Under the pieces are notes generated by a model. That model had not been told where the DNA came from. It did not search any database and saw only the letters and a list, made by a program, of their open reading frames with translations. Both the position numbers and the translations under genes were made by a program. Below are positions 1,384 to 9,085 of a stretch of DNA of 64,000 bases, one piece after another (the stretch's first letter is position 1; each line of letters starts with the position of its first letter). The DNA is from an uncultured Ferrovum sp. (GTDB lineage Bacteria; Pseudomonadota; Gammaproteobacteria; Burkholderiales; Ferrovaceae), in contig CAIVHB010000144.1 of the NCBI GenBank assembly GCA_903905585.1, positions 1 to 64,000 of the forward strand, written 5' to 3'.

Positions 1384-1929
1384 TCAGAAATTGATGGATG
1401 CGGTGACGGTATCTAAGTAGGTATCCACCGAAACATCTTGACCTGCTGCGATTGTTCCGCAGACGTTGTAAACCCTAGCTGTTTTAGCGGGTGCACTCGT
1501 TAAGGTGAGCATGCCCGCCCCTACATTGCTCCAAGCTATCGTTCCGGGAAAGGTGCAGATTGTATTTTCAGCATTACTAGGTGGTTGAAAGATGCTGTAT
1601 TGCAAAAGGTTGTTGGATGTCAGCCCCACCATTTGTCGCTGCGAACCATTCACATGCGCACCATCACCCATCCCTATCGTCATACTGGCTGACCCTTTAG
1701 CGCAGGCTACGCTGATTTGGCCTGTCGCATTGAGAGGAACAGTAGCATTTGTCCCAACGGGGTCATACACTGCAAATGCAAGTGCAGTTGTTGTAGTGAT
1801 TGAGCATATTTGCGACACAGATGCTGAAACAGAAATAGTTCTAGTAGCTGTTCCCGCTGCCAAGAGGTCTCCACAAAATAATGTTAAGCAGAGCGCGAGA
1901 AAATAATTTCGAATAGTTTTTTTGAGCAT
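1384..1929 (-). CDS. Spore coat U domain pilin subunit (copy 2)
   Basis: Secreted pilin of the archaic chaperone-usher (Csu) type, 181 residues. A signal peptide of about 24 residues ends near LLAAG. The mature part carries one SCPU domain with four cysteines (in QICSI, VAC, TIC and NVCG), enough for two disulfides, and ends in the strand-like ITASINF-type tail expected for donor-strand assembly. GGAG lies 8 bases before the ATG. It is clearly a paralogue of the pilin at 2728-3276, with long identical stretches such as TLTSAPA and NVCGTIAAGQDV. The order pilin, chaperone, pilin, usher places it between chaperone and usher. Whether it is a major or a tip-proximal subunit cannot be told. Confidence 0.88.
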   Translation of the reverse strand: MLKKTIRNYFLALCLTLFCGDLLAAGTATRTISVSASVSQICSITTTTALAFAVYDPVGTNATVPLNATGQISVACAKGSASMTIGMGDGAHVNGSQRQMVGLTSNNLLQYSIFQPPSNAENTICTFPGTIAWSNVGAGMLTLTSAPAKTARVYNVCGTIAAGQDVSVDTYLDTVTASINF

Positions 1930-1957
1930 GATTATGACTCCTTATTTGAAAAAACCC

Positions 1958-2713
1958 TTACGGTGTATCAAGAGCAATTTCAGTATCAACATTTTCAATA
2001 TCGGTGAATGCCTTCAGGCGCAAACGGGTACCGATTAATTTTTCGCCAATGTTAGTTTTCAAGAACCATTGATGACTTTGTCCCGCTAATACATAGCTTG
2101 AGACCGTATCACTGGCTATTGGCAATTCCACGCCAGGAACATACAAAGCCAAGTCAGTAATTTGGATGTGAGCATTGCCTTGATTTTTCAGGTTAACAAC
2201 TAAGTTTTTATCTGACGCGTGCTCAAGGTGCCAAACCATTTTGGGGACTGCGATCCCCTTTTGCATTTGAATAAAAACTGGGAGGCTTACGCGAAGCGCA
2301 ACCTGAACCGCAGATGCATTGCTTAGCGCCGCCGCAGGAAGCTCTTGTAAATTAATACGATAAGTCATTTCCCCCTTTAATTCTGAATGCTGTCGCAATG
2401 CCACACGAACAATCTGTTCTTGCTTTGGGTTGATGGTAAAAATGGGGGGGGAAATAATCAGTTCTTTGGTTGGGGTGTATACGTCTTTTCCATCTACTTG
2501 AGACCAAGCCACAACCTGAACCTGAATAGACGTTACTTGATCGCCATCATTGCTGATCGTAATGGCTGATGTTGTTTGCTCTGAAGTGAGCTCAACACGA
2601 ACAGGCTCTACATTCCAGCTAGCTGCACTGACTTCAAGTGAATGGATGAAAAGCAAAACGAAGCAAAAATAAATACTTCGTATTGGATTAAAATATTGAA
2701 TTAAGGGTTTCAT
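1958..2713 (-). CDS. Periplasmic pilus chaperone (PapD/CsuC-like)
   Basis: Periplasmic chaperone of 251 residues that would hold pilin subunits and deliver them to the usher. A signal peptide covers about residues 1-31 (hydrophobic core IYFCFVLLFIHSL). The first immunoglobulin-like domain follows (VEPVRVELTSEQTTSAITISN), then the subunit-binding strand region near SPPIFTINPKQEQIVRV and the second domain (about 150-250). It lies 14 bp downstream of the first pilin gene and 28 bp upstream of the second, so co-transcription is likely. It resembles archaic-type chaperones more than FimC, judged from the SCPU partners rather than from a search. Confidence 0.9.
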   Translation of the reverse strand: MKPLIQYFNPIRSIYFCFVLLFIHSLEVSAASWNVEPVRVELTSEQTTSAITISNDGDQVTSIQVQVVAWSQVDGKDVYTPTKELIISPPIFTINPKQEQIVRVALRQHSELKGEMTYRINLQELPAAALSNASAVQVALRVSLPVFIQMQKGIAVPKMVWHLEHASDKNLVVNLKNQGNAHIQITDLALYVPGVELPIASDTVSSYVLAGQSHQWFLKTNIGEKLIGTRLRLKAFTDIENVDTEIALDTP

Positions 2714-2727
2714 ATCATCTCACTTGA

Positions 2728-3276
2728 TTAGAAATTGATCGATGCAGTAATGGTGTCGGAGTAGCTATCTACCGCCACATCTTGTCCGGCCGCAATCGTG
2801 CCGCAGACGTTGTAGAACCTTGCTGTGTTGGCTGGAGCGCTTGTTAACGTCAATAGACCCGCGCCGAGACTGTTCCAGGGTAATGAACCTGGAAAACTAC
2901 AGAGGGCATTATCAAGATTACTGACCGGCTGAAAGATGTTGTATTGCAGAAGGTTGCTAGATGTACCCCCAAGCATTTGGCGCTGAGCCCCAGCCACATG
3001 AGTACCGTCTCCCATCCCAATCGTCAAACCAAAAGCGCCTTTAGAACACGCCACACTGATTTGACCTATGGCATTTAATGGAACCGTAGCATTGGCTCCA
3101 ACGGGATCATACAAAGCAAACGCAAGTGGGGTGGTTGTACTAATAGAACAGATTTGTCCTACTGAAGCAGTTACCGAAAAAGGATTGGTCCCTGAACCTG
3201 CAGCGTAAATATCTTTGCTTAAGACTAATAAGCAAAAAGCATAAGAATATTTCTGAATAATTTTTTTAAGCATCAT
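2728..3276 (-). CDS. Spore coat U domain pilin subunit (copy 1)
   Basis: First gene of the pilus operon, 182 residues. A signal peptide (about 1-25, ending IYAAG) precedes one SCPU domain with the same four cysteines as its paralogue downstream. AAGGAG sits in front of two consecutive ATG codons (3276 and 3273); the second has the same 8-base spacing as the paralogue, so either may be used. The mature regions of the two pilins are highly alike while the signal peptides have drifted, which suggests an old tandem duplication with selection on the folded part. Confidence 0.88.
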   Translation of the reverse strand: MMLKKIIQKYSYAFCLLVLSKDIYAAGSGTNPFSVTASVGQICSISTTTPLAFALYDPVGANATVPLNAIGQISVACSKGAFGLTIGMGDGTHVAGAQRQMLGGTSSNLLQYNIFQPVSNLDNALCSFPGSLPWNSLGAGLLTLTSAPANTARFYNVCGTIAAGQDVAVDSYSDTITASINF

Positions 3277-3618: not shown

Positions 3619-4908
3619 TTATGTGTGTGCAGCTACATCGGCATCTGCAGAAGCTTTTGCGATCATCCTAGCCCGCATGGGTTTAAGGATAAACCATGCT
3701 GTCAACGCGGCAAGAATATTCAGCGTTGCAGCGATCACAAATACGATATGCCAACCCCCGTAAGCTTTGGAAAGTGTATTGGCATAAGGAACCATGAGCG
3801 CCGCAGTACCCTTAGCGGTATACAGTAATCCCGCATTTGCAGCTGCAAATGTTTTACCAAATGTATCGGCGCAGGTTGAAGGGAACAAGCTGTAAATTTC
3901 ACCCCAAGCGAAGAATACGAGGGCAGTGAGCACAATAAACAGAACGGGGTCTTGTCCGTATTCCGACAACAATAAAATCCCCACTCCCTCTAGGCTAAAC
4001 GCAATCAGCATGGTCAACTCACGGCCAATTTTATCTGACACCCAACCAAAGAAAGGACGCGTAGCGCCATTCAAAATACGATCCAAAGACAAGGCAAAAG
4101 GTAAAGCCGCCATGGTAATACCTGCCATTGAAACGGGAACGTCAGCAATCTTGAAGTCTTTGGCGATAGGCCCTAACTGGGCTGTTGCCATCAATCCACC
4201 TGCTGCCATCGCAACAAACATCAGGTACATCACCCAAAAAACAGGCTTACTCAGCACTTCCATGGGCTTGTAATCTCGACGCGTTTGTACAGGACCCCCA
4301 GAGGGCGCTGCAGGAAAACCAGAGGCTTGACGGGCATCCAACAGGAAAAAGGAAAGGATGACTACTGCCACGCCCTGACCAATACCGAAGTTAAAGAAGG
4401 CAGCCTCATATCCGCTTGTTTTTATCATGGATGCAATGGGCACCACGGTTAATGCTGAGCCCGCACCAAAACCCGCAGCAGTAAAACCAGCGGCTAGACC
4501 ACGGCGATCAGGGAACCATTTCAATGCATTACCCACACAGGTACCGTATACCGCGCCGGCACCCAATCCGCTCACGGCTGCGGCGGCATAGAGCATCCCC
4601 AAGGTATCGGCTTGTGAATTCATCACCCAACCAATACCGCATAGAATACCGCCAATCAACACCACAGGCCGGGGGCCGTATTTATCTACAAGATACCCTT
4701 CAACAGGAACCAGCCAAGTTTCAAGCAACACAAACAAGGTGAAAGCCCATTGAATCGACTCACGACCCCAATGATATTTGGTATCAATTGGCACTACGAA
4801 CAGGGTCCATCCGTATTGCAGGTTGGCAATCATGGCCATACAGGCCACACCAATAGCAAGTTGCAACCAGCGATTCACTGGCTTACCGTTAACTAATACT
4901 GAACTCAT
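3619..4908 (-). CDS. oxlT: Oxalate/formate antiporter-type MFS transporter
   Basis: Major facilitator protein with about 12 membrane spans, 429 residues. The likely job is oxalate uptake in exchange for formate across the inner membrane. It resembles Oxalobacter OxlT along its length: QYGWTLF in helix 1, WFPDRRGLAAGFTAAGFG, RPFFGWVSDKIGR and SLFPSTCADTFG. The two basic residues known to bind oxalate in OxlT (R272 and K355 there) are matched here by R284 and K366. I prefer the ATG at 4908, with GAGGA 8 bases upstream, over the GTG at 4923. It follows oxalyl-CoA decarboxylase by about 260 bp with a terminator-like hairpin between, so it may also have its own promoter. A carboxylate MFS with another substrate is the alternative. 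Confidence 0.83.
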   Translation of the reverse strand: MSSVLVNGKPVNRWLQLAIGVACMAMIANLQYGWTLFVVPIDTKYHWGRESIQWAFTLFVLLETWLVPVEGYLVDKYGPRPVVLIGGILCGIGWVMNSQADTLGMLYAAAAVSGLGAGAVYGTCVGNALKWFPDRRGLAAGFTAAGFGAGSALTVVPIASMIKTSGYEAAFFNFGIGQGVAVVILSFFLLDARQASGFPAAPSGGPVQTRRDYKPMEVLSKPVFWVMYLMFVAMAAGGLMATAQLGPIAKDFKIADVPVSMAGITMAALPFALSLDRILNGATRPFFGWVSDKIGRELTMLIAFSLEGVGILLLSEYGQDPVLFIVLTALVFFAWGEIYSLFPSTCADTFGKTFAAANAGLLYTAKGTAALMVPYANTLSKAYGGWHIVFVIAATLNILAALTAWFILKPMRARMIAKASADADVAAHT

Positions 4909-5028
4909 GACAGCGATCCTCACAGAGTCATTGAAGACTCATTTCTATTTATACAAAATGCCAAGGGGATATGAATTATAAAGTTACCTTCAACCGATTA
5001 GCTTGTTATTTATTTTTCTAATCATTTC

Positions 5029-5172: not shown

Positions 5173-6939
5173 TTATTGATGGGCTGAGGATGCAGCAGTA
5201 GAGGGATTGAGACTGGTCAAACGACCACTCTCTGTTCCTGCTGTTTCATCGATGATGGCATTAATCAAAGTGGGCTTACCAGAAGCGATGGATTGAGTCA
5301 GTGCCTCGGAGAGTTCCTCTGGGGTGGTGGCGGTGAAACCCATCCCGCCAAAAGCTTGCATCATCATTTCGTATTTAGCGTCTTTCACAAAAACGGTAGG
5401 CGCGACATCTGCTCCACCTGATACATTCACATCGGTTCCGCGATACACACCGTTGTTGTTGAACACAACCACAGTGATAGGAAGCTTGTAGCGGCAGATG
5501 GTTTCGACTTCCATGCCGCTAAAGCCAAACGCACTATCACCTTCGATGGCAACGACAGGAAGCCCCGTGGTAACAGTTGCACCAATCGAATAGCCCATCC
5601 CAATCCCCATAATGCCCCAGGTGCCGGAGTCAAGACGTTTTCGGGGTTGGTACATATCGATAATACTGCGAGCAAAGTCCAGTGTATTGGCACCTTCATT
5701 CACCACAATGACATCAGGACGTGTCTTCAATACATCGCGAATGGAGCGCAGAGCACTATGAAAATTCATCGGTGAGGGATTGTGTGCCAAGGTCTGCGCC
5801 ATCTTTGCCAGATTCTTGCTCTTGCGCTCGTCGATGGCAATGGTCCACTCAACATTCTCTTTGTTGAGCTCTGAATCAAATGCTCCTAATAGCGCGCTCA
5901 CGCATGAACCAATATCACCTATCAATGGTGCTTGAATAGACACATTGCTATCGATCTCTGTGGGCGAGATATCTATCTGGATAAATTTCTTTGGTGCGTT
6001 ACCCCACGTCTTACCTTTGCCATGAGCCAGCAACCAATTCAAACGTGCACCTATAAGCAGCACGGTATCGGCTTCGGCCAACACAAAGGAACGCGCAGCA
6101 GAAGCACATTGCGCATGATTATCAGGCAGGAGGCCTTTTGCCATCGACATCGGCAAATAGGGGATGCCCGATTTTTCAACCAGCGCTTTGATCGCTGCAT
6201 CGGCTTGCGCATACGCAGCGCCCTTGCCCAATATAATCAGAGGTCTTTTGGCTGACTTAAGTAGATGAATTGCACGCTCAATGGACTGAGGGGAAGGGAT
6301 TTGAGCAGGAACAGGATCGACTACTTTCACAATCGATTTTCTTCCTAATTCTGCATCGATGACTTGACTTAACAATTGAGCGGGCAAATCCAGATACACC
6401 CCCCCTGGGCGGCCAGATACCGCCGCACGAATGGCGCGTGCCACACCGATACCGATGTCTTCCGCTTTGTTGATGCGATAAGACGCTTTAGCGTAAGGCT
6501 TTGCGGCATTGAGCTGATCCATTTCTTCATAGTCGCCCTGCTGCAAATCGATAATCTCACGCTCACTGGATCCGCTGATCAAAATCATGGGAAAGCAGTT
6601 AGTGGTTGCGTTAGCTAGTGCAGTCAAACCATTCAAAAAGCCTGGCGCAGAAACCGTCATGCAAATACCCGGTTTCTGCGTAAGATATCCGGCTGCAGCA
6701 GCGGCATTGCCCGCATGTTGCTCATGACGAAAGCCGATGAAACGCATACCTTCTGCCTGTGCAAGACGACACAAGTCAGTTATGGGGATACCCACTAAAC
6801 CAAAAATGGTGTCGATGTTATTCGCTTTGAGTGCATCGATAACAAGATGAAATCCATTGGTGGTTGGGGCTCGATACGCAAGAGCTGTTGACGCGGCGCT
6901 TAAGGCTTCGGAATCCATGAACTTGCTCTCTATCGACAT
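5173..6939 (-). CDS. oxc: Oxalyl-CoA decarboxylase
   Basis: Thiamine-diphosphate enzyme, up to 588 residues, that converts oxalyl-CoA to formyl-CoA and CO2 in the cytoplasm. Three ThDP-family domains are visible. The catalytic set known from Oxalobacter Oxc is all present: E73 (RHEQHAG), Y137-E138 (GDYEEMDQ), Y499 (NNNGVYRG) and S571-G-R573. The metal/ThDP motif runs from G467-D468-S469 to N495. An internal ATG at codon 8 (6918) has GAGAG upstream, while the first ATG has no visible ribosome site, so the real protein may be 581 residues. It lies downstream of a Crp/Fnr-type regulator and upstream of the OxlT-like gene. A formyl-CoA transferase (frc), needed to make oxalyl-CoA, is not in the window. 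Confidence 0.95.
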
Positions 6940-6978
6940 GACAGTGAGAAGTCTATGCTTCTCGATTACCTCAAGTCA

Positions 6979-6992
6979 TTGACCTGGATCAT
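6979..6992. promoter_or_regulatory. FNR-box-like site 1 upstream of oxc
   Basis: TTGACCTGGATCAT matches the FNR/ANR consensus TTGAT-N4-ATCAA at 8 of 10 positions. Its centre is about 46 bp before the first oxc ATG. The neighbouring regulator has an FNR-type recognition helix. Binding is inferred. Confidence 0.55.
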
Positions 6993-7020
6993 TTTTTGGC
7001 TGTACCAAAAGGACAAATGT

Positions 7021-7034
7021 ATGACCCAGATCAA
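7021..7034. promoter_or_regulatory. FNR-box-like site 2 upstream of oxc
   Basis: ATGACCCAGATCAA has a perfect right half-site (ATCAA) and 8 of 10 consensus matches. It is nearly the reverse complement of site 1. The centres are 42 bp apart, four helical turns, which would put two dimers on the same face of the DNA. Confidence 0.55.
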
Positions 7035-7161
7035 TTTTTTGAAATAAATATTGATCATTAGGCAAAGAATAGCTTATACATGGATTGTGCTGCAAACCAC
7101 AATATTGATATGTAGAGCGGACCAGAGGGTGGGGAAAACAGCCAAGAATTGGGCGCTATGC

Positions 7162-7770
7162 CTACTTGGTGTGTTTAGACTTTAAACGGCTCAAGGTTTC
7201 GGGGGAGATGTTTAAATAAGCAGCCAATTCTTTTTGTGTAAGTAAATCGAAAAGATGACTGTATTTACGGATAAAACGCTCTACACGGCCAGATGCATCC
7301 AACATATGCAGCGTAATGGTATGCGCCATGATTTCACTCATAATGCGCATGACCTCATATTCAAAATGCTCTTTGAGCGAGGGGCGCTCAGCCAAGAACT
7401 CCATCCATTTTTGGACCGGTACTCTGGCTACCCTAGAGTGAGTGACGCAGGCAATTGAGTAAGGGGCATTTTTCTTTTGCCGCCATGCAGCGTAACTTGT
7501 CTCAATATCGCCATGAATGGCGAAACGCAAAATCATCCCTTTCGCATTTGCACTGCTCACAAAGCGCTTAAGGATGCCATCCAATACAAAATACTGCTCG
7601 AGTTGTTCATCCCCCTGTCTTAGCAATATCTCTGATTTTTTTAAATCTGAGATGTAAATATGACGCTCAAGCTCAGATAAGTCTTGATGACTTAAATGTT
7701 TCAGTATGACGTTCTGACCCAACTGAACGTTGATCAGAGTCCGATCTTGGTGCTTGAATAACTCCGTCAT
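7162..7770 (-). CDS. Crp/Fnr-family transcriptional regulator
   Basis: DNA-binding regulator of 202 residues. An N-terminal cyclic-nucleotide-binding-like beta-roll covers about residues 20-115 (FVLDGILKRF, LRFAIHGDIE). A dimer helix lies at about 120-150, and a C-terminal winged helix-turn-helix ends the protein (LTQKELAAYLNISPETLSRL). The recognition helix has E-T-L-S-R, matching the ETxSR residues with which FNR reads TTGAT. The cysteine cluster of FNR is absent (only one Cys is visible), so it should not sense oxygen through an iron-sulfur cluster. The gene lies upstream of oxc in the same direction with 222 bp between, where two FNR-like boxes lie. It probably controls the oxalate genes; the effector is unknown. 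Confidence 0.85.
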   Translation of the reverse strand: MTELFKHQDRTLINVQLGQNVILKHLSHQDLSELERHIYISDLKKSEILLRQGDEQLEQYFVLDGILKRFVSSANAKGMILRFAIHGDIETSYAAWRQKKNAPYSIACVTHSRVARVPVQKWMEFLAERPSLKEHFEYEVMRIMSEIMAHTITLHMLDASGRVERFIRKYSHLFDLLTQKELAAYLNISPETLSRLKSKHTK

Positions 7771-7834
7771 AGGCTTATTGAATGGGTGTAATCAAATTAA
7801 ACATGGGCCAGCATCCCAGAGGGCTCCTCTTCAT

Positions 7835-7909
7835 TGTGATCTCTTAATAGGATATTTCAGCAAACATTCAATAAAGTAAGCAAATACGTATTCAGTTTTC
7901 GAGATCACA
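7835..7909. promoter_or_regulatory. Long-range inverted repeat upstream of the regulator gene
   Basis: TGTGATCTC (7835-7843) and its exact reverse complement GAGATCACA (7901-7909) are separated by 57 AT-rich bases. Each contains TGTGA, the half-site of Crp proteins. The pair lies between the divergent starts of the regulator (7770) and the small gene (7957). It could be two operator halves bridged by looping; no intervening stem is evident. Confidence 0.4.
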
Positions 7910-7956
7910 TCCGTAAGACCTAGTGTGTGTTGTGAACTAAATTGGAATCTTCAAAA

Positions 7957-8136
7957 ATGAACTTAGACATTAAAGACAAATTAGATATTCAATCTGGTGT
8001 TTTCTATGGAACTCTATTTTTGGATTGCCCCGAAGAGATTGCTAATACTATTCGCGACAATCTCAGCAGACTTTTTGGTCATGTTGAACTCGCTCGCGTA
8101 AGCGGCGAAGCTTTTACTTTTGCAGTGAGTGCGTAA
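7957..8136 (+). CDS. Small protein of unknown function
   Basis: A 59-residue frame starting at ATG 7957; a TTG at 7942 would add five residues. I do not recognise a family. The protein is acidic at the start, has no membrane segment or cysteine pair, and reads like a folded alpha/beta piece (GVFYGTLFLDCPEEIANTI, then GHVELARVSGEAFTFAV). It is divergent from the Crp/Fnr gene. Its last 23 bases overlap, tail to tail, the end of the desaturase gene, so part of the frame could be constrained by the other strand. A weak GGA about 10 bases upstream is the only ribosome-site signal. Moderately likely to be real. Confidence 0.45.
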   Translation: MNLDIKDKLDIQSGVFYGTLFLDCPEEIANTIRDNLSRLFGHVELARVSGEAFTFAVSA

Positions 8137-9085
8137 GCACCTGAAGCAGTCTCTGAACACCTCGCTTCTGCTGACCCCAAAAGCTATGGCCATAGTCACG
8201 ACCATTTCTTTGATCGAATATCCCTGTCGGACCTTCATAGGGAATAAAGCGGGCACTATTAAAAAGAATATCCCAGATCGGAAATAACACTGCAAAGTTG
8301 CACCCTTGCAGAGCACCTTGATGCCCGAGATCAATAGCGTGATGTACGCGGTGAAAGTGAGGGCTTACAAGCAAACAATCTCCCCATTGGCCAAATGAGA
8401 GTTTAATATTGGCGTGTGCCAAGCTTTGCAAGAAACGTGTAAGAAGAGCCAAGAGCAAAAACTGACTGGGTGGCACTCCAATCACTAAAGCAATACCCGC
8501 AAACCAAGATGCCCCCAAAACATCATCGATGAGGTGATTACGGTCATCGGTCCATAAACTCATGCGCTGTTGACTGTGATGCAGCGCATGCAAAGCCCAC
8601 CACCACTCTAATCGATGCTGCAGCCTGTGTTGCCAATAAGCCGCAAAGTCTAAAACGATCAAGTATGCGATGAAGGTAGCGATAGGACGGTTAATAAGAA
8701 AAGGAAACAAACCTTCCAAGGTAAATGGAATAAATCCGTTAAAACGGAGCATGGCATCGATCGAATCGGCCAGCGGTTGAATGGCAATAAAAAAAAGTAA
8801 GGGCACCACACCAAGGCGATGCAAGAGGGTATAAATCACATCGGTACCCACCCCTTCTCTTGAAGACCATTTCTCGGCGGGGCGCAATGCTTCAAGAGGC
8901 CGCAAAACGAGGTACAAAGCTAAAACCTCTAGAATGCCAAACAAAAAAAATTCTACGCCATCAAAAGCAATTTCAAGCCAGTTATCTAATTGTAGTAGGT
9001 GAATGAGCGGCTCAACCGTGTTCTCAAAAACCAAGTCTTGTATATGAGAAAAAAATGGGCTTAATAGGTCGGTCACGCCAGGCAC
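8114..9085 (-). CDS. Sterol desaturase / fatty acid hydroxylase family protein
   Basis: Integral-membrane di-iron oxygenase of 323 residues. The eight-histidine signature is present: HRLQH (153-157), HALHH (166-170) and HFHRVHH (243-249), with several hydrophobic spans around it. Such enzymes hydroxylate or desaturate lipids; the substrate here is unknown. The start is GTG at 9085, only 22 bp after the deacetylase gene, so it is likely the third gene of the propeller-deacetylase-hydroxylase set. Its end overlaps the small convergent gene. Confidence 0.85.
   Translation of the reverse strand: MPGVTDLLSPFFSHIQDLVFENTVEPLIHLLQLDNWLEIAFDGVEFFLFGILEVLALYLVLRPLEALRPAEKWSSREGVGTDVIYTLLHRLGVVPLLFFIAIQPLADSIDAMLRFNGFIPFTLEGLFPFLINRPIATFIAYLIVLDFAAYWQHRLQHRLEWWWALHALHHSQQRMSLWTDDRNHLIDDVLGASWFAGIALVIGVPPSQFLLLALLTRFLQSLAHANIKLSFGQWGDCLLVSPHFHRVHHAIDLGHQGALQGCNFAVLFPIWDILFNSARFIPYEGPTGIFDQRNGRDYGHSFWGQQKRGVQRLLQVLTHSLQK

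Follow-up and report, generated by a model that had tools for sequence, protein, structure and literature searches.

A Crp/Fnr-superfamily protein and a palindromic FNR-like box as a candidate switch for oxalate catabolism in Burkholderiales

The gene immediately upstream of oxalyl-CoA decarboxylase (oxc) in a 64,000-nucleotide stretch of an uncultured Ferrovum sp. genome (hereafter the window) probably encodes a dedicated activator of oxalate and formyl-CoA catabolism, possessing an FNR-type recognition helix and neither the cysteines of FNR nor the cAMP-contacting residues of CRP. The protein would represent a Burkholderiales orthologue group within the Crp/Fnr superfamily. From the conservation of a palindromic box, its linkage to the regulator and oxc, its spacing to a -10 element, the joint absence of regulator and box in one relative and the predicted fold of the protein, we infer DNA binding, activation and the existence of a ligand. 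An initial annotation, made from the sequence alone, had proposed a dedicated local switch that uses FNR-type sites and responds to a different signal, and this interpretation is supported.

The oxc locus and its two boxes

The regulator gene, oxc and an oxalate/formate antiporter gene follow one another in that order on the same strand (Table 1). Elsewhere in the window, two similar pilin/spore-coat-U-like proteins are encoded around a fimbrial-chaperone-like protein (1384-3276; named by eye from translation), and a plus-strand open frame of ~59 codons (7958-8137) runs divergently from the regulator gene, mostly inside the stretch that aligns with a same-genus genome, G004.

Table 1. Coordinates of the features at the oxc locus, in window numbering
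Feature	Position	Strand	Basis or remark
Oxalate/formate MFS antiporter, OxlT type	3619..4923	-	TIGR04259, 639 bits (cut-off 335)
oxc, oxalyl-CoA decarboxylase	5173..6939	-	TIGR03254, 979 bits (cut-off 739)
Predicted -10 hexamer TAGACT	6950..6955	-	23 nt from proximal box
Regulator-oxc intergenic regulatory region, 222 bp	6940..7161	-	Both boxes inside
Proximal box, ATGATCCAGGTCAA in oxc sense	6979..6992	-	Predicted centre -42.5; -10-like hexamer at conserved offset
Distal box, TTGATCTGGGTCAT in oxc sense	7021..7034	-	Predicted centre -84.5
Crp/Fnr superfamily regulator gene, 202 aa	7162..7770	-	cNMP-binding fold and HTH with ETLSR

In the forward strand the proximal and distal sites read TTGACCTGGATCAT and ATGACCCAGATCAA, respectively, and begin 42 bp apart. 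As the initial annotation had reported, both fit TTGATNNNNATCAA at eight of ten positions and are near reverse complements, the first being identical to the reverse complement of the second at 12 of 14 positions. Its description of a mirror-image pair did not stand: the term adds nothing, because each site is already palindrome-like, and the conserved unit is a single TTGACC-N2-GGTCAA box.

The loose pattern TTGACN5TCAA, with up to two mismatches, matches 247 times in the window against 225 expected from shuffles, a level so close to chance that either site alone is weak evidence. As a pair, the sites are not due to chance: none of 4000 Markov-simulated intergenic regions contained two sites of this kind by the weight matrix described next, with 26 containing at least one, and WTGAYCNNGRTCAW is found at five places in the 2.29-Mb assembly, two of them constituting this pair (reversed-pattern control, two places). 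A weight matrix built from 63 distinct 20-mers around the boxes of relatives, with the window held out, places the two sites fourth and fifth among all matches in the 64 kb, tied in score, the proximal site being fifth. The third-best match, TTGAGACTGGTCAA (5207-5220, minus strand), sits within the 3' end of oxc and precedes the antiporter gene by ~0.28 kb; it could either have a role at oxlT or be a chance occurrence. By their sequence, the window sites are weak copies of the conserved palindrome, from which they deviate by one outer T changed to A in each and by T at position 5 in two of the four half-sites.

Conservation of the box and its association with the regulator

The initial annotation made its proposal turn on conservation of the sites in relatives, and the box is indeed kept both beside the regulator gene and beside oxc or frc. 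Among 120 genomes, 28 oxc loci (one per genome) were collected, and a 10/10 TTGAY-N4-RTCAA box is present within 420 bp upstream of protein residue 27 in 25 of these. In the other three loci the match is poorer: the window has two 9/10 sites and G082 a single one, and in G004 no site reaches 8/10. The oxc genes of L025, L026, L031 and L065 are cut at the start and contribute no promoter to the count of boxes upstream of oxc. A first set of 35 regulator-centred loci (L128-L162; 571,214 bases), whose counts include distant TPP enzymes (25-26% identical) as oxc, holds 55 boxes, compared with a mean of 1.39 (maximum 10) for 59 permuted half-sites, and 29 of the 35 have a box no more than 450 bp upstream of at least one of oxc, frc and the regulator gene. 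The six loci with no box in these positions are L136, L139 and L155, which lie at contig ends or on short contigs, L148, L150 and L156; in the last, a pair of boxes spaced by 40 bp precedes fhs. In a second set of 48 further genomes of the order, which were not used to define the box and in which the distant TPP enzymes are kept apart, all 48 regulator loci carry the box in the 450 bp ahead of at least one of these three genes; 75 boxes occur in 470 kb, the mean for permuted patterns being 1.08 (maximum 9). A Betaproteobacteria MAG recovered in a scan of named genomes (L067) also combines box, regulator and oxc. True oxc is missing beside the regulator in L130, L132, L143, L149, L255, L262 and L266, where a TPP enzyme only distantly related to Oxc (25-26% identity) is found next to frc, with a box; the best NCBIfam match of the L130 copy falls below its cut-off, and this enzyme may be another acyl-CoA decarboxylase or lyase.

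The regulator itself is closely linked to the oxalate genes. Of the 120 genomes, the window's own included, 36 encode the regulator, 28 oxc and 45 frc-type genes, and 27 of the 28 that have oxc also have the regulator (Fisher 4.5e-18, without correction for kinship). In the second set, 47 of 48 loci have it no more than 5 kb from oxc or frc, the remaining one (L277) being near a contig end. Across a class-wide sample of 369 genomes it was detected at 1e-30 in one, the window's own, and a plasmid search at 1e-20 returned no regulator. Outside the order, 350 genomes of the class yielded, besides the window's own oxc, three sub-cut-off matches only, one of which has a 10/10 box ~1 kb away; three such matches are too few to serve as a control.

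An alternative is that the boxes are ordinary FNR sites through which oxygen-sensing FNR controls oxc, with the neighbouring regulator incidental or acting elsewhere. The genome of the window does encode such an FNR (L001), with cysteines in its N-terminal part and an ETVSR motif. Cross-binding is also plausible, given that boxes at ccoN loci take C or G in one half in 17 of 34 cases and that T stands at position 5 in half of the window's half-sites. Moreover, the exact palindrome TTGACCNNGGTCAA is not confined to genomes with the regulator: it occurs at 82 places in 50 of the 120 genomes (15 places in all 120 for the reversed control), with 39 places in 18 of the 36 regulator-bearing genomes and 43 places in 32 of the 84 others, some of which may be FNR sites. 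The strict palindrome is thus not diagnostic, and the argument rests on its position beside oxc, frc, fhs and the regulator rather than on its presence in a genome. Perfect TTGACC-N2-GGTCAA boxes also occur in two same-genus genomes in which no regulator was detected (L165, G004:C7 31558; L166, G002:C17 100183), and FNR is a possible owner of these.

Position, base preference and co-occurrence nevertheless make control by FNR very unlikely. Although an FNR-like protein (E <= 1e-20) is encoded in 101 of the 120 genomes, the box at oxc and frc tracks the regulator. The base preference of the two kinds of box differs: of the 36 boxes that precede oxc, frc, the regulator and (one) the antiporter, 24 have C/G at positions 5/10, against 2 of 34 boxes at ccoN loci (Fisher 7e-8). 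In the second set C/G is found in 40 of 54 boxes and T/A in none; these related sequences are not independent. G062 and G038 have the regulator and the box, yet no FNR match at 1e-20. Conversely, G004 possesses an FNR 81% identical to that of the window's genome and an Oxc 96% identical, but neither the regulator nor any box of at least 8/10 in the 420 bp upstream of oxc. Together, these genomes and the preference at positions 5/10 connect the oxc box with the adjacent regulator, and FNR was rejected as the main owner of the sites, box and regulator being found at oxc or frc where no FNR was detected and being jointly absent where FNR is present.

The comparison with G004 also bears on the history of the locus. 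Gene order is kept between the two genomes, and the 1.05 kb of the window that hold the regulator gene and both boxes (6931-7985) correspond to ~0.2 kb with no box in G004 (L164, G004:C111), where the nearest site found (9/10) lies ~0.5 kb upstream of oxc, inside the neighbouring gene. The oxc genes are more alike (91% DNA identity) than their flanks (78-79%), suggesting recombination, transfer or a stronger constraint on oxc.

The pairing of boxes is a more restricted feature than the box itself. Of 29 oxc promoters, 15 have one box, 11 have two (all in family f1) and three have none within the distance used; no promoter outside f1 has two 10/10 boxes. Within f1 the pair is present in 11 of 12 oxc genomes, the exception being G004, with a spacing of 39 bp in seven, 40 bp in three and 42 bp in the window. 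The placement of both sites on the same helical face, as originally suggested, therefore fits the 42 bp of the window but not the 39 or 40 bp of its ten f1 relatives. On these counts the mirror-image pair was rejected as the functional unit. The window's regulator groups with f32 proteins, and the single f32 oxc box aligns with the window's distal box. Since these f32 proteins are single-box ones, the pairs of the window and of the other f1 genomes may be independent, although the exact place of the window's regulator in the tree is unsure owing to its long branch. A reasonable, if unproven, history would have the module derive from an f32-like lineage, with the proximal box and its -10 element arising afterwards.

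The regulator protein and the geometry of its promoters

The neighbouring gene had been described as encoding a Crp/Fnr protein with an ETLSR recognition helix and no oxygen-sensing cysteines, and this description holds, the 202-residue product having ETLSR and a single cysteine. No cysteine column is conserved among 84 regulator sequences, the window's included, whilst E191-T192-x-S194-R195 is kept in all 84. Further invariant residues are K68, R69, R82, W96, H150 and H155, of which the two histidines are by themselves no proof of DNR/NnrR-type haem binding or a response to NO. The protein matches PF00027 at 32.3 bits (cut-off 27.5) and PF13545 at 26.2, slightly below the cut-off of 27. Its AF2 model (pLDDT 93.3) is matched by CRP and FNR structures at Z ~20, and the predicted cNMP-binding beta-roll, dimerisation helix and C-terminal HTH place it in the Crp/Fnr superfamily. 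A winged HTH is not predicted: the modelled chain ends with the recognition helix (190-201) and has no beta-hairpin wing. Likewise, 14 printed tails among the 84 regulators stop 5-14 residues past ETLSR/ETMSR. The missing wing alone does not exclude membership of the superfamily, as a similarly short protein, 3dn7, exists in the PDB. Several f1 genomes encode two or three regulator paralogues (G010, G011, G015, G020, G021, G024 and G025).

The position of the box relative to the promoter was assessed with a -10 score, a simple weighting devised for this analysis, from which the start sites are predictions. In 26 oxc promoters, including those of the window and L067, the mean score is highest, at 8.0, for an offset of 23 nt on the downstream side of the proximal box, other offsets scoring 1.9-4.5. 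The peak is again at 23 nt in the 41 box-oxc pairs of the second set (mean 7.5; median over all offsets 2.6), and also in nine fhs boxes with enough sequence (8.0). It is found at 22 nt in the eight box-frc pairs of the second set and in 34 boxes at ccoN loci, which are presumed FNR sites (6.6). If a centre of -41.5 is assumed for the ccoN boxes, that of the oxc boxes falls at -42.5; with these predicted starts, the promoters display the box centre near -41.5 and the fixed distance to the -10 element that characterize class II activator promoters. No -10 peak was observed in the regulator direction in the second set, and autoregulation is consequently not claimed.

In the window, the TAGACT hexamer at the 23-nt offset places the predicted transcription start near 6943, which would leave the ATG at 6918 usable as a start codon and the ATG at 6939 not. 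The oxc start is thus more likely to be at 6918-6916 (MDSEAL) than at 6939; AGAGAG precedes it at 6931-6926, and the open frame of the G004 copy also starts at MDSEAL. In the proposed mechanism, a regulator dimer would bind TTGACC-N2-GGTCAA palindromes via its E..SR recognition helix, the proximal box would replace the -35 element, and the dimer on this box would act as a class II activator that brings RNA polymerase to the -10 hexamer, with the distal box adding to activation. As the protein has neither the Fe-S cysteines of FNR nor the cAMP residues of CRP, it probably responds to a metabolite of the oxalyl-CoA/formyl-CoA pathway, although naming such a metabolite as the ligand is a guess.

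The same sites could in principle serve repression, the distal and/or the proximal one blocking polymerase until oxalate or a CoA thioester frees the protein. Crp/Fnr proteins can repress from some positions, and a box 23-28 nt before fhs, as seen in seven f1 genomes, would overlap the start region. Repression of oxc is nonetheless highly improbable, since the box-to-(-10) spacing centres on 23 nt over many oxc promoters, one base from that of the ccoN boxes, and a blocking site needs no such register.

Activation by a functional regulator, as preferred here, might still fail in this particular genome, where degenerate boxes and a fast-evolving regulator could have become inactive in a system that functions in relatives. 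The window's boxes are weaker than those of most relatives, and its regulator sits on a long branch (0.7), alone among the 84 in differing at L57 and T178 and departing also at H86 and Q98. These departures from near-invariant residues and the long branch make relaxation or a shifted specificity possible, and the branch and the weaker boxes allow for a decaying copy. The window's own genome also has no box before frc or fhs, and both regulator and boxes are missing from a same-genus genome. Decay is unlikely, however. No stop codon interrupts the 202 codons of the regulator frame, which also has the 46 invariant columns of alignment A1 (54 sequences), HTH contact residues among them, and the locus still offers two matching boxes together with a -10-like hexamer at the conserved spacing.

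Wider targets and comparison with known systems

The notion of a dedicated local switch holds in that the box at oxc and frc goes with the regulator rather than with FNR, but in relatives the system is not purely local: boxes are also found at fhs and at some other C1 or transport genes. Over both locus sets, 41 boxes are not upstream of oxc, frc or the regulator, and targets were named for all but 18, ten representatives being compared with NCBIfam. Seven precede formate-tetrahydrofolate ligase (fhs; L154, L156 twice, L157, L158, L162 and L281), four precede antiporters (L130, L288 twice and L289) and two PEP carboxylase (L148 and L150). One each precedes a 2-dehydropantoate-2-reductase-like (PanE-like) gene (L268) and a frame ending in a succinyl-CoA-ligase-alpha-like protein (L158); a further five lie before a transporter substrate-binding-like gene and three before a formyltransferase-like gene, both named by eye. 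The formyltransferase-like gene lies between the antiporter gene and oxc, with a box before or at its start (L145:6894-7826, L146:6828-7760 and L151:6830-7846). Its L145 copy has no NCBIfam match at 1e-60, and it possibly links formyl-CoA to folate C1 metabolism.

The association with fhs was examined in 58 upstream regions from 57 of 61 fhs genomes (G024, G025 and G030, which are cut, and G037, at a contig edge, were left out). A box is present in 16 of 28 regulator-bearing regions, leaving 12 with no box, compared with 2 of the other 30 regions (p 4e-5, without correction for kinship). Seven of the 16 box-positive regulator-bearing genomes belong to f1, with the box 23-28 nt before fhs, and these seven may represent one inherited sequence. 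In a more far-reaching model, slightly less likely than not, the regulators form an undescribed Crp/Fnr orthologue group whose effector is a CoA thioester or acid of the oxalate pathway, be it oxalyl-CoA, formyl-CoA, oxalate, formate or glyoxylate. Throughout the oxalotrophic Burkholderiales, this group would match the uptake and cleavage of oxalate to formate/C1 assimilation by way of fhs, PEP carboxylase and the PanE-like reductase, and would thus be the master regulator of oxalotrophy there.

Among the listed matches of a full-text literature search, as judged from titles and the starts of abstracts and mostly from papers outside subscription, neither a Crp/Fnr regulator of oxc/frc nor any transcription factor for oxc/frc in Burkholderiales was found. 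Oxalotrophy matters in plant colonisation by Burkholderia, and Burkholderia phytofirmans has a cluster of antiporter, oxc and frc, according to a paper that does not mention 'regulat' or 'FNR' (PMC3886118). The Methylobacterium regulator CstR is a CheY-like response regulator, and the report on it has no mention of 'Crp' or 'Fnr' (PMC13344952). In Cupriavidus necator, external glycolate might, via glyoxylate, induce the oxc-frc route, as is suggested in a paper that does not mention 'Crp' or 'Fnr' (PMC7486775); this would make glyoxylate a further ligand candidate. The terms 'regulator', 'Crp' and 'Fnr' do not appear in another paper (PMC12927642). With a conserved regulator, a defined 14-bp box and a promoter geometry, oxc/frc control in Burkholderiales becomes directly testable, and oxalate breakdown generally is a further reason for interest. 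The system also suggests that the FNR recognition helix has been reused, with a shift to C/G at one site position, in a protein that lacks the sensor residues of FNR and CRP.

FNR activators bind near -41.5 and recognize DNA through an E..SR motif. The regulator shares with FNR its fold (Aliivibrio fischeri FNR, Z ~20), the E..SR motif, which its residues and the TTGA half-sites of the neighbouring boxes suggest is used in the same manner, a palindromic 14-bp box like TTGATNNNNATCAA and an activator position near -41.5. It differs in having no N-terminal [4Fe-4S] cysteine cluster, in its score of 31.1 bits against the cut-off of 228 of the NCBIfam Fnr model, in the preference of its boxes for C/G at positions 5/10, in a -10 element at 23 rather than 22 nt and in the absence of a wing. 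With CRP/CAP it has in common the cNMP-binding fold and C-terminal HTH, aligned over residues 36-179, whereas its score is 33 bits against a cut-off of 266. The cAMP contacts of CRP, namely E72, R82, S83, T127 and S128, align with S92, A102, P103, I147 and M148 of the regulator in an ungapped alignment read by hand. The only PDB match of the family profile at 1e-10 (3.2e-14) is 3dn7, a short Crp/Fnr-like protein of 194 aa from Cytophaga hutchinsonii, aligned to its residue 191, in which Y and E replace the T and R of ETLSR (PEYLSEIRKK) and whose entry title reads 'cyclic nucleotide binding regulatory protein', with no further function. In its proposed role, the regulator can be likened to CprK (chlorophenols) and HbaR (hydroxybenzoate), Crp/Fnr sensors of another pathway and lineage that likewise combine an organic effector and an FNR-like box with a catabolic operon.
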